A DNA stretch of 64,000 bases, from NCBI RefSeq assembly GCF_000382705.1, contig NZ_ARQE01000009.1, positions 124,001 through 188,000 on the forward strand, in the 5' to 3' direction. The notes under the pieces are model-generated. The model searched no databases and was not told the DNA's origin. It was given only the letters and a program-made list of their open reading frames with translations. The stretch is from Aureimonas ureilytica DSM 18598 = NBRC 106430 (GTDB lineage Bacteria; Pseudomonadota; Alphaproteobacteria; Rhizobiales; Rhizobiaceae). Both the position numbers and the translations under genes were made by a program. Positions 42,432 to 47,818 of the stretch are shown here, in pieces (the first letter of the stretch is position 1; every line of letters starts with the position of its first letter).

Positions 42432-43829
<1,398 letters not shown>

Positions 43830-43886: not shown

Positions 43887-45098
43887 TCAGAGGATGAAGC
43901 CGGCGAGGACGGTGAAAAGCGCGACCTGCCAGGGCGGGCGCGCCCAGAGGGTCAGGAGGAGGAAGCCCGCGACGGCGATCACGAGATCGCGCGGGGCCAG
44001 GATGGCGTGGGTCCAGACCGGATCGTAGAGCGCCGCGCCGAGGAGGCCGACCACCGCCGCATTGGCGCCACGCATGGCGGCGCGGGCGAGCGGGCGGCGG
44101 CGAAGCCCGTCCCAGAAGGGCAGGGCGGCGAGCACCAGAAGAAGGCCCGGCAGGAAGATCGCGATGAGCGCCAGGGTCGCGCCGGCCAAGCCGCCCGGAG
44201 CGGGTGCGAGCGCGCCGAGATAGGCGGCGAAGGTGAAGAGCGGACCCGGCACGAGCTGCGCGGCGCCATAGCCGGCCAGAAACGCATCCGTGCCGACGAG
44301 GCCGCGCTGCACGGTTTCGGCTTCGAGAAGCGGCAGGACCACATGGCCGCCGCCGAAGACGAAGGCGCCCGAGCGGAAGATGCCGTCGAACAGCTGAAGG
44401 GCGGGTGAGCCGGCGAGCGAAGCCGCGAGCGGCAGGCCGAGGGCGAGACCGAGGAACAGGGCGCCGGCTGCGAGGCCGAGACGGCGCGGCGCGGCGCGGC
44501 CGAGCGTGTCGGGCGCGGGGGCTTGCGTCTCGGCCCGGCAGAAGGCGAGGCCGAGCAGCGCGCCGAGAACGATCGCGAGCCCCTGCGCGCCCGCGCCCGC
44601 AAGGAGCGAGGTCAGCGCCAGCCCCAGAAGCGCGATGGCCGCGCGCGTGCGATCCGGCGCGAGCGTTCGCGCCATGCCCCAGACGGCCTGCGCGACGACG
44701 GCGACGGCGAGGATCTTGAGACTGTGCGTGAGGTCCGCGCCGACGCCGCTCTGGAGACGATCCGCGCCGAGCGCCACGGCGTAGAGGAGGAGCGCGGAGG
44801 GAAGCGTGAAGCCCGCCCAGGCGGCGAGCGCGCCGGGCAGGCCCGCGCGCCCGTAGCCGATGGCAAAACCGACCTGGCTGGAGGCGGGACCGGGCAGGAA
44901 CTGGCAGAGCGCCACGAGATCGGCATAGCGCGCCTCGTCCAGCCAGCGGCGGCGCTCGACGAAGGCATGGCGGAAATAGCCAAGATGCGCGATCGGGCCG
45001 CCGAAGGATGTGAGGCCGAGCCCGAGAAAGACGCGGAACACCTCCGCAGCTCGGTGGCGGCTGATGGGTTCGGGAGGAGCGTCGGAAAGCGGGGCCAT
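43887..45098 (-). CDS. chrA: Chromate transporter ChrA
   Basis: The product is 403 residues from ATG 45098, a long-chain CHR protein with two homologous CHR domains. Each has its signature: FGGPIAHLGYFRHAFVERRRW with CQFLPGPASSQ in the first, and GAFVFGGGHVVLPLLEAE with AAQLVPGPLFTFAAYLGA in the second. It has about ten membrane helices. It expels chromate or takes part in sulfate-like anion movement. The frame stays open upstream, but that part overlaps the sRNA gene and has no protein character. Confidence 0.92.
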   Translation of the reverse strand: MAPLSDAPPEPISRHRAAEVFRVFLGLGLTSFGGPIAHLGYFRHAFVERRRWLDEARYADLVALCQFLPGPASSQVGFAIGYGRAGLPGALAAWAGFTLPSALLLYAVALGADRLQSGVGADLTHSLKILAVAVVAQAVWGMARTLAPDRTRAAIALLGLALTSLLAGAGAQGLAIVLGALLGLAFCRAETQAPAPDTLGRAAPRRLGLAAGALFLGLALGLPLAASLAGSPALQLFDGIFRSGAFVFGGGHVVLPLLEAETVQRGLVGTDAFLAGYGAAQLVPGPLFTFAAYLGALAPAPGGLAGATLALIAIFLPGLLLVLAALPFWDGLRRRPLARAAMRGANAAVVGLLGAALYDPVWTHAILAPRDLVIAVAGFLLLTLWARPPWQVALFTVLAGFIL

Positions 45099-45215
45099 GC
45101 GCTGCGCGTAAGGGAGAAGCACGAAGGCCAGATGACAGGGCGAAGCGGCTCCGCGCAAGCGCTCGCGACGCGGTCGGCGCAGGCGATGCCGCGCTTGGTT
45201 CATGTGGCTATCGGC

Positions 45216-45335
45216 AAAAGAAAAAGCCGAGCTCAGGGAGCCCGGCTGAAAGTTTGAGATGCTAGAGCATCTCTGGGAGGAAACGAACGGCGCGGAAAGC
45301 TTGGGAGGAGGTAAGCTTCCGCGGCCCGGACGTGA
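45216..45335 (-). ncRNA. abcR: AbcR-type (alpha-r15) small regulatory RNA
   Basis: The predicted RNA is about 118 nt, running from about 45333 down to 45216. Stem-loop 1 (45322-45292) pairs GCGGAAGCTT with AAGCTTTCCGC and presents ACCTCCTCCC, an anti-Shine-Dalgarno sequence, in its loop. A single-stranded stretch follows with a second such motif, TTTCCTCCC (45283-45275). Stem-loop 2 is a perfect repeat GAGATGCT-CT-AGCATCTC (45273-45256). The terminator hairpin (45247-45225) runs into TTTTTCTTTT. This three-stem, two-motif design and the place next to the LsrB/VtlR gene match AbcR RNAs of rhizobia, Agrobacterium and Brucella, which bind Hfq and repress ABC-transporter mRNAs. Only one copy is seen. 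Exact ends are inferred. Confidence 0.85.
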
Positions 45336-45390
45336 CTTCAAGCTAACCTGAGCTTGGCGCCGCCTCCAGCCACGAAACAACATGCCTGCC

Positions 45391-45405
45391 ATGCAGAAAT
45401 TGCAT
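45391..45405. promoter_or_regulatory. Candidate VtlR/LsrB box upstream of the sRNA
   Basis: ATGCA-ATTTC-TGCAT on the minus strand is a perfect 5-bp inverted repeat fitting the LysR consensus T-N11-A. Its centre lies about 65 bp upstream of the predicted sRNA start near 45333, the usual LysR activator position. The -10 candidate TTAGCT is at 45346-45341, and no good -35 is seen, as expected for an activated promoter. Confidence 0.65.
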
Positions 45406-45484: not shown

Positions 45485-46381
45485 CTAGTAGGACCAAGTG
45501 CGCGCTTTGCCAATCAGGAAATCACGGAAAACCTTCAGTTTCGCCGCGTCGCGGAGCTGCTCGGGATAGCAGAAATAGGTGTCGAAGGACGCGAGATCGA
45601 GATCGGGCAGGACCTGCACGAGCTTGGTGTCCTTGTCGATCATGTAGTCCGGCAGGAGCGCCAGACCGATGCCGCGCTCGATGGCCGACTTCATCGCCAT
45701 CAGATTGTTGATCTGAAGGATTGCCGGGCGGACCTGGCCTTCCGGCAGGCCGGCGGTTTCCAGCGCGTTCAGATTGCGCAGATAGTTGGGCGCCGGCTCG
45801 CCGAAGGTGATGATGCGATGCCGGTCGAGATCCTCTGTCGTCTCGGGCGTGCCGTAGCGCGCGAGATAGCCGGGCGCGGCATAGACGTGCAGATGCACGG
45901 TGAAGAGGCGGCGCTGGATCAGGTCCGGCTGCTGCGGCTGGCGCAGGCGAATGGCCGCGTCCGCCTTGCGCATGGTGAGGTCGATCTCCTCGTTGTCGAA
46001 GACGAGCTGCAATTCGACATCGGGATAGAGTTCGAGAAATTCCTGCGCGCGCTGGGTCAGCCAGCCTGAGCCCAGACCCACCGTCGTCGTCACGCGCAGC
46101 TTGCCGGTCGGCTTCTCCCGCGTTTCGGTGAGCTGCATCCGGACGTTTTCGAGACGCTTCAGCACGTCGCTGGCGGTCTGGTACAGGAGCTCGCCCGGCT
46201 CGGACAGGACGAGGCCGCGCGCATGGCGATGGAAGAGGGGGGAGCCGATTTCCTGCTCCAGCGCCGCCACCTGTCGCGAGATGGCGGACTGGCTGAGATT
46301 CAGCGCATTGGCCGCATGGGTAAAGGACCCGGCTTCGGCGGCTGCGTGGAAAATGCGCAGCTTGTCCCAGTCGAGCGCCAT
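45485..46381 (-). CDS. lsrB: LysR-type regulator LsrB/VtlR
   Basis: The product is 298 residues. The winged HTH (LRIFHAAAEAGSFTHAANALNLSQSAISRQVAALE) and effector domain follow the rhizobial LsrB/Brucella VtlR pattern as I recall it, and the place after trxB and before an AbcR-type RNA supports it. In Sinorhizobium LsrB controls redox and lipopolysaccharide genes; in Brucella and Agrobacterium VtlR activates abcR genes. Only one Cys is present (FCYPEQL), fewer than the redox-active set described for S. meliloti LsrB. It lies 33 bp after trxB. Confidence 0.88.
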   Translation of the reverse strand: MALDWDKLRIFHAAAEAGSFTHAANALNLSQSAISRQVAALEQEIGSPLFHRHARGLVLSEPGELLYQTASDVLKRLENVRMQLTETREKPTGKLRVTTTVGLGSGWLTQRAQEFLELYPDVELQLVFDNEEIDLTMRKADAAIRLRQPQQPDLIQRRLFTVHLHVYAAPGYLARYGTPETTEDLDRHRIITFGEPAPNYLRNLNALETAGLPEGQVRPAILQINNLMAMKSAIERGIGLALLPDYMIDKDTKLVQVLPDLDLASFDTYFCYPEQLRDAAKLKVFRDFLIGKARTWSY

Positions 46382-46414: not shown

Positions 46415-47392
46415 TTACTCGGCCGCTTGCCGCGCGGCCTGCGCGTCCAGCGCCTGGGCCGCCAGCCAGCGTTCGGCCTCGAGCGCCGCCATGCAGCCGA
46501 GCCCGGCCGCCGTCACCGCCTGCCGGTAGACATCGTCGGCGACATCGCCGGCCGCGAACACGCCCTCGACGGAGGTCTTGGTCGTGCCGGGCTCCACCCA
46601 GAGATAGCCGCCGTCCTTCTGGCGCAGCTGGTCGCCGAAGACCTCGGTCGCCGGCGCGTGGCCGATGGCGACGAAGACGCCATGCGCGGCGAGCGTCTGC
46701 GTCTCGCCGGTCTCGCGATTGCGCAGCGTGACGCCCGTCACCGACTTCATCGGCTTGGTCTCGCCGGTGATTTCGGCGACTTCGCTGTTCCAGATCACCC
46801 GGACATTGTCCTTGGCGAAGAGGCGATTCTGCATGATGCGCTCGGCGCGGAATTCCGAGCGGCGGTGAACCACGGTCACGGATTTCGCGATATGCGAGAG
46901 GTAGAGCGCTTCCTCGACCGCCGTGTTGCCGCCGCCGACCACCACGACATCCTTGCCGCGATAGAAGAACCCGTCGCAGGTGGCGCAGGCCGAGACGCCG
47001 AAACCCTGGAAGGCGGCTTCGGATTCGAGACCGAGCCAGCGCGCCTGCGCGCCGGTCGCGATGATCACGGCGTTGGCCGTATAGGTCGTGCCGCTGTCGC
47101 CCCGGAAACGGAAGGGGCGCACGGACAGGTCGGCCTCGACGATGAGGTCGGACGCCATCTCGGCGCCGACATTCAGCGCCTGCGCCTTCATTTCTTCCAT
47201 CAGGAACGGGCCGGCGATCGGATCGCGATAGCCCGGATAGTTCTCGACGTCGGAGGTGATGGTGAGCTGGCCGCCTTCCTGAAGGCCGGCGACGAGAAGC
47301 GGCTTCATCATGGCGCGCGCGGCGTAGATCGCCGCCGTATAGCCGGCCGGACCGGAACCGATCACGAGAACTTCGGCAAAACGCTCGGACAT
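46415..47392 (-). CDS. trxB: Thioredoxin reductase
   Basis: The product is 325 residues from ATG 47392. It moves electrons from NADPH through FAD to thioredoxin. The FAD motif is VLVIGSGPAGYTAAIYAARA, the redox-active pair CATC in VSACATCDGFFY, the NADPH motif VVVVGGGNTAVEEALYL, and the C-terminal FAD contact VFAAGDVADDVYRQAVTAAG. It is the first gene of trxB-lsrB. Confidence 0.96.
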   Translation of the reverse strand: MSERFAEVLVIGSGPAGYTAAIYAARAMMKPLLVAGLQEGGQLTITSDVENYPGYRDPIAGPFLMEEMKAQALNVGAEMASDLIVEADLSVRPFRFRGDSGTTYTANAVIIATGAQARWLGLESEAAFQGFGVSACATCDGFFYRGKDVVVVGGGNTAVEEALYLSHIAKSVTVVHRRSEFRAERIMQNRLFAKDNVRVIWNSEVAEITGETKPMKSVTGVTLRNRETGETQTLAAHGVFVAIGHAPATEVFGDQLRQKDGGYLWVEPGTTKTSVEGVFAAGDVADDVYRQAVTAAGLGCMAALEAERWLAAQALDAQAARQAAE

Positions 47393-47818
47393 GACAAAAC
47401 CCGCAAACCCGTAAGTGGAAACCGGCAAGGCCGGACCGGCCGGACATGGGACCGGCCATCCCCTAGTTCAATACGGGAGCATGGCAGGTCCGACAACCGA
47501 AAGAGTTGCCCGATCGCCACAGCTCCACCGGTTTCCTGCACTGGACTGGACGGCGGCAAAAGGTCTCGCTACGCTGAGACTGCTTTCAACACTGGAAAGG
47601 GGAGGCCTCATGACCAAGCACATGTTCGTTTCCCCGGCTGGGGCCCGTCGTCATCCTTCGACGCTTCGCCCGGCTTCTGCCACGTCTCGGGTCTGATTCC
47701 CGCCTTCGGCAGCTTCTCCGTGTTGTGTCCGTCGCGGACCCGACGCTTCCCCTGATCTGATCCCCGCTTCGGCGTGGTTTTCGAGGAGACGGCGCGGCCA
47801 TCGGCGCGCCGGAACGCC
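47393..47818. other. Divergent region between trxB and the ABC exporter
   Basis: These 426 bases hold promoters for both neighbours. One short frame with a good ribosome-binding site (47610-47696) is listed separately. The words TCTGATTCCCGCCTTCGGC (47692-47710) and TCTGATCCCCGCTTCGGC (47756-47773) form an imperfect direct repeat. Nothing else is recognised. Confidence 0.45.
47610..47696 (+). CDS. Possible 28-residue leader ORF upstream of the ABC exporter
   Basis: ATG 47610 follows AAAGGGGAGG with ideal spacing. The frame encodes MTKHMFVSPAGARRH and 13 further residues, and stops 122 bases before the exporter gene. It has no recognisable domain. It could be a regulatory upstream ORF, but the support is only the ribosome-binding site. 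Confidence 0.3.
   Translation: MTKHMFVSPAGARRHPSTLRPASATSRV

Follow-up and report, generated by a model that had tools for sequence, protein, structure and literature searches.

We detected in the window, the whole 64,000-nt stretch of DNA analysed here, what is very probably a single strong copy of a gene for a trans-acting sRNA of the AbcR (ar15) family, in an Aureimonas-type bacterium. The gene is about 119 nt long, encodes three hairpins and lies on the minus strand after lsrB (45217..45335, by covariance models R2 and R1 and by the fold). The sRNA is a divergent AbcR below the Rfam cut-off, which makes it a sound, mostly ordinary finding: the lsrB-abcR adjacency in Agrobacterium and Sinorhizobium and the role of LsrB as activator are already known, and the layout is not new. 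The points for which we found no published precedent are the replacement of the M2 seed motif, the retention of the regulator box with the sRNA where lsrB lies apart, and the change in the LsrB cysteines.

The gene order on the minus strand is trxB, lsrB, LysR-type box, -10-like hexamer, RNA, terminator and chrA. The trxB gene (46415..47428, minus strand; thioredoxin reductase, TIGR01292 above the cut-off) lies upstream of lsrB/vtlR (45485..46381, minus strand, 298 aa), which encodes the probable activator and was assigned by LysR-family matches and by the trxB-lsrB order as published. LysR-family matches are present for LsrB, none of the 25 NCBIfam matches listed being above the cut-off. The protein is a close homologue of rhizobial LsrB, with 67-98% identity to its relatives (best 80 of 480 loci), supporting the LsrB/VtlR-type neighbour that had been proposed; it is 98% identical to the A. 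ureilytica NS365 counterpart, from the family Aurantimonadaceae in NCBI. Downstream of the terminator lie chrA, for a chromate transporter (43887..45098, minus strand, start codon assumed; TIGR00937 above the cut-off), and a convergent aatA-like aspartate aminotransferase gene (42624..43829, plus strand; best NCBIfam match and synteny), whose product has aspartate transaminase as the top NCBIfam match at 556 bits, below the cut-off of 617. Hfq is encoded in the host genome.

The preliminary description of this DNA had listed on the minus strand three stems, a loop motif, a second motif, a terminator, a -10 and a palindrome for an RNA of ~118 nt. All these elements are present, and the model places the start at 45335, giving a length of about 119 nt. 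The stem-loop 1 core (45291..45323; fold and alignment A2) carries in its loop CCTCCTCCCA (45302..45311), or ACCTCCTCCC (45303-45312), an anti-Shine-Dalgarno (aSD) sequence with M1 CUCCCA that contains CCUCCUCCCA. The linker TTTCCTCCC (45275..45283) contains UUUCCUCCC, a second aSD/M1-like motif at the usual place of M2 GUUCCC, and is followed by a perfect second hairpin of 7 bp with a 4-nt loop (45256..45273; fold and alignment) and by the intrinsic terminator (45217..45247), made of a 10-bp stem at 45225-45247 and the U-tract TTTTTCTTTT. The RNA thus has the ar15 arrangement of three hairpins with an aSD loop in the first, M1 CUCCCA in hairpin 1 and the terminator last. The claim that every part of an AbcR is present held for M1, the stems and the terminator, but not for M2 GUUCCC, which is absent. 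The 130-nt stretch folds with an energy of -49.3 kcal/mol (z -4.4; 0/200 shuffles as good). The motif CCTCCTCCC by itself is not significant (1 seen vs mean 0.75 expected), and the weight of the locus evidence comes from conservation, because the parts recur in identical order after lsrB in 20 further loci of Aurantimonadaceae.

Rfam at the gathering score gave zero matches in the window. The ar15 covariance search, suggested earlier as a check, reported nothing there or in the host genome (no match at E <= 1; 9/61 genomes over the cut-off in that search), the cut-off having been set on other lineages. A relaxed Rfam search on 10 Aurantimonadaceae loci found no ar15 and five sub-threshold matches (SorX 3, toxic sRNA 1, anti-hemB 1), and BLASTN against plasmids returned a single weak, irrelevant match. 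In the relaxed search of the window the top sub-threshold match by bits was suhB/mmgR, at 29 of the 41 bits required for RF00519; it belongs to the ar15 clan and could mask a weak ar15 match. An MmgR (suhB, RF00519) identity in place of AbcR, to which this match and the sub-threshold suhB matches of other lsrB-adjacent copies (up to 38 bits in genome G003) would point, is nevertheless highly improbable, since the match spans only 45210-45288 and misses stem 1, suhB above the cut-off was found in 3/21 genus genomes, each time away from the copy found by R1, and both the place after lsrB and the reciprocal models favour ar15.

These models were built separately for the two lineages. Our rhizobial set comprises 34 Phyllobacterium/Mesorhizobium/Brucella-type loci, of which 20 were run against Rfam; ar15 was above the cut-off downstream of lsrB in 20/20, directly after the gene in 18 and further away in L083 (about 0.7 kb) and L088 (about 1.5 kb). 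R2, a covariance model made from these 20 rhizobial ar15 loci only, with the window excluded, matched the window at 34.0 bits (45219-45328; E 4.6e-6). It also found 20/20 further lsrB-adjacent copies in Aurantimonadaceae, with E <= 7.3e-4 for 19 of them and 0.016 for L021; these E-values are rough because of the short calibration. R1, made from Aurantimonadaceae only, scored 97.3 bits on the window, which is among its members by construction, and found 34/34 rhizobial loci at similarly rough E-values of <= 7.2e-7. The RNA stays below the Rfam gathering score of ar15, and by covariance it resembles genuine members of this family. Homology with the rhizobial AbcR is well supported by the reciprocal R1/R2 matches, the shared place and the shared box, and the AbcR identity given in the preliminary description is borne out by the models, the covariation and the place. 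An independent origin beside lsrB of a generic CCUCCUCCC anti-SD sRNA of the ar14/CcsR1 type would agree with the missing M2 and with sub-threshold matches to ar14 (23 bits) and CcsR1 (20 bits), but we give this explanation very little credence, as the rhizobial AbcR shares the lsrB-aatA place, the box with its spacing and the three-stem order, and the models match reciprocally.

R2 also gave weak minus-strand matches of 13-21 bits about 2.3 kb past lsrB, on the other strand, in seven loci (L030, L035, L039, L042, L043, L044, L049), perhaps another sRNA; none was counted as an AbcR copy. In the one inspected, L035:6261-6369 (-), a terminator stands at the end, but the matched stretch is without a CUCCC-rich loop.

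Covariance support for the three stems in related genomes, the absence of which had been named as refuting the proposal, was found. Alignment A2 holds 21 sequences (19 distinct rows); 86.2% of its cells are paired and two-sided changes occur at 18/35 pairs, including 5/5 pairs of the innermost helix of stem 1, for a structure that was derived from the very sequences tested, which favours it somewhat. None of 500 shuffles attained any of the five measures, and sliding the partner columns by one to three lowered the paired cells to 28-57%.

We also considered the RNA as a 5' leader or attenuator of chrA. On the same strand, chrA follows the terminator at a distance of about 120 bp, and its frame is open upstream through the region. 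A leader function is nevertheless very unlikely, because chrA follows the RNA in only 6/80 relatives' loci (the named LsrB-relative loci, best 80 of 480) and 6/20 lsrB-adjacent copies, and the RNA covaries and is kept beside other genes. Judged by gene order, chrA is not part of the lsrB-sRNA unit in most relatives; the position between sRNA and aminotransferase gene is occupied by chrA in the window and the same 6/80 loci. A convergent aminotransferase gene is within reach in 17/20 adjacent Aurantimonadaceae loci and 21/34 rhizobial loci, so the arrangement lsrB - abcR - aatA seems to be the older one and chrA a later insertion.

Upstream of the sRNA we found a -10-like hexamer, TTAGCT (45341..45346, minus strand), with CTATAA/CTAGCT at the equivalent place in relatives, and a weak -35-like hexamer, CTGGAG (45364..45369, minus strand), with a 17-nt spacer, read against the promoter consensus CTTGAC-N17-CTATAT given in PMC8844928. 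A sigma-70 consensus scan detected no promoter at the sRNA, the weak CTGGAG included. The palindromic LysR-type box ATGCAATTTCTGCAT, ATGCA-N5-TGCAT (T-N11-A), lies at 45391..45405 (minus strand), about -70 to -56, and this pattern was seen once in 64 kb vs a mean of 0.02 expected. It is overlapped by GCATGGCAGGCAT (45382..45394, minus strand, about -59 to -47), which differs at a single fixed position (A for T) from the LsrB consensus GCAT-N3-TG-N3-T, which PMC8844928 reports for S. meliloti between -61 and -49. The loose pattern GCAT-N3-[TA]G-N3-T by itself is not significant (4 seen vs mean 9.8 expected). Binding and activation of the abcR1 promoter by LsrB/VtlR, together with the gene order, are described in PMC7486931 and PMC8844928, and the window has the corresponding ar15 trait, a locus beside lsrB/vtlR with the published LsrB box at one mismatch.

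The palindrome at 45391-45405 is conserved upstream of the relatives' sRNAs, confirming the LysR box pointed out in the preliminary description. All eight half-site letters were present in 17/21 adjacent Aurantimonadaceae, 25/33 rhizobial and 11/24 separated sequences, vs 0.18% of mononucleotide shuffles; in this control the best site anywhere in 130 bp was taken, and about 4% of shuffles reached seven letters or more. L077, identical to L075 in the letters of the RNA region, was excluded from the box count and kept in the R1 and motif counts.

One strong copy is visible in the host genome, in agreement with the single copy reported for the window: R1 found a single strong match there, and one copy of >= 50 bits in each of 20/21 genus genomes, in a scan that scored at most 150 first-pass candidates per genome and could miss a more divergent copy. 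Two further host-genome matches are weak, at 26 and 24 bits; the latter lies at C3:332867-332961, and the former was rejected as a second copy, being a bare terminator after coding sequence. At the lsrB locus of Aureimonas pseudogalii (L014) no R1 match was found and no such RNA is present in the 500 bases after lsrB (L014:3880-4400), an apparent loss of AbcR; the best R1 match in this genome (G011) reaches just 22 bits. With no strong copy there, the sRNA seems dispensable at least in A. pseudogalii.

No copy stands right after lsrB in 26/46 named Aurantimonadaceae loci. A strong copy was found elsewhere for 24 of the 25 such loci with the genome searched (56-102 bits with R1; the L037 genome was not included): in L053 the sRNA lies about 1.76 kb beyond lsrB, and the remaining copies are elsewhere in the genome. 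The L024 contig ends 124 bp after lsrB. An aminotransferase gene is present within a 1.5 kb flank of 16/24 separated copies, suggesting that in most cases lsrB is the part that moved apart and the sRNA remained beside aatA. On the upstream side of the separated copies (L122-L145), 17/24 adjoin one shared gene, membrane-protein-like by eye.

The box is retained at the separated copies: in addition to the 11/24 with all eight half-site letters, 23/24 have at least seven, counts that were unchanged when the starts were restricted to -75 to -50. The simplest reading would be that LsrB controls abcR in trans, and the persistence of the box after the separation of the two genes argues, on comparative grounds, that this control does operate in trans and is under selection.

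The M2 motif was found to be replaced throughout the family. In PMC5461406, M1 is CUCCCA in hairpin 1 and M2 is GUUCCC between hairpins 1 and 2; AbcR motifs are also described in PMC3712013. M2 belongs to this description of the Brucella AbcRs and is not a formal criterion of the ar15 family. Most of the Brucella targets tested are served by M2, either by itself or together with M1. The window RNA has UUUCCUCCC in place of GUUCCC. The comparison covered 46 RNAs from Aurantimonadaceae: the window and 20 further lsrB-adjacent copies, 23 copies apart from lsrB, L053 and L111 (L136, which is the L053 copy, was counted once). Of these, 45/46 are without GUUCCC, 45/46 have UUUCCUCCC and 46/46 have >= two CUCCC. 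The exception is L047, where the linker carries UAUUCCUCCC and GUUCCC falls within the second hairpin.

GUUCCC was found in 44/44 ar15 relatives compared, 34/34 rhizobial and 10/10 further ar15 loci; one of the latter, L007, has UUUCCUCCC as well. At least two CUCCC occur in 11/34 rhizobial RNAs too, where the extra copy precedes the loop, within the 5' arm of stem 1, and GUUCCC is intact; L066 has a third CUCCC. In the wider order, R1 matched 39/199 genomes, and among the 29 of 41 non-own matches that were read GUUCCC was present in 17/29, including 11/13 beside an LsrB of >= 50% identity. Because of its presence in the 44/44 relatives and these 11/13 matches, M2 was probably ancestral and replaced in Aurantimonadaceae. 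We found no published account of AbcR in Aureimonas or Aurantimonas, nor of an M2 replacement, in a search mostly outside subscription journals.

The regulator differs as well. PMC11975290 describes conserved cysteines C144 and C273 of LsrB (A. tumefaciens numbering), C273S being deletion-like and C144S not. In the window LsrB the first site is A142 and the second C271, leaving the published pair incomplete. The first site is Ala in 41/47 Aurantimonadaceae, with Cys kept in L021, L022, L023, L026, L027 and L028, and Cys in 34/34 others; the second Cys is present in 46/47 Aurantimonadaceae and 29/34 others. The cysteine pair is not an orthology criterion. With Ala142, an intramolecular disulfide between these two positions is impossible in the window LsrB, and the activating signal may differ from the published one.

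Taken together, M2 may have been exchanged for a second CUCCC in the ancestor of the Aurantimonadaceae studied and the LsrB cysteine pair dismantled in most of them, so that the circuit was rewired at both its output and its input, while the box and the RNA scaffold were retained despite the separation of lsrB from the sRNA in some loci; we put this forward tentatively, as a possibility somewhat short of even. The seed swap in this well-studied two-seed sRNA amounts to a natural experiment, since comparing the natural variants can show what M1 and M2 each do, and the present locus extends AbcR to a family where the Rfam ar15 model failed on the host genome.

We infer transcription, activation by LsrB and targets from the features of the locus. 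LsrB would bind the box at 45382-45405 and activate the promoter with the weak -35, and the ~119-nt RNA would bind Hfq. The two CUCCC segments would pair with ribosome-binding sites and thereby block translation and favour decay of the mRNA, and transporter mRNAs would be repressed by the sRNA. Target recognition would rest on the two anti-SD/M1-like segments, as M2 GUUCCC is replaced in Aurantimonadaceae.

The preliminary description had gone further, proposing a feed-forward unit that controls many transporter mRNAs. A feed-forward unit would need LsrB acting on the targets of the sRNA and is not supported; the locus suggests just a cascade from LsrB to the sRNA, and the proposed control of many transporter mRNAs is extrapolated. 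We compared 36 substrate-binding genes of ABC transporters (of 37 loci; L214 was dropped, having no start) with 44 window ORFs picked by third-position GC, and found no excess complementarity to the loop (Mann-Whitney p 0.42) or the linker (p 0.54), in a crude test where several start codons look mis-called and which is weak evidence either way.

Among known systems, the MmgR/suhB RNA (RF00519) resembles the window RNA in belonging to the Rfam clan of ar15 and in having a similar 3' end; it differs in that the match in the window is below the cut-off and covers 45210-45288 only, while suhB above the cut-off is found elsewhere in 3/21 genus genomes. Brucella AbcR1/AbcR2 share with the window RNA M1 CUCCCA in loop 1 and a VtlR-type activator, but have, according to PMC5461406, M2 GUUCCC, which the window RNA lacks. 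The layout also resembles that of AbcR1 (ar15, RF02345) of S. meliloti and A. tumefaciens, which in the published descriptions likewise lies after lsrB/vtlR, with a LysR-type box, three hairpins, a CUCCCA aSD loop and a terminator. These species have M2 GUUCCC and a tandem AbcR2, whereas the window has a second CUCCC and one strong copy, in an RNA that, unlike theirs, is unreported by Rfam ar15.
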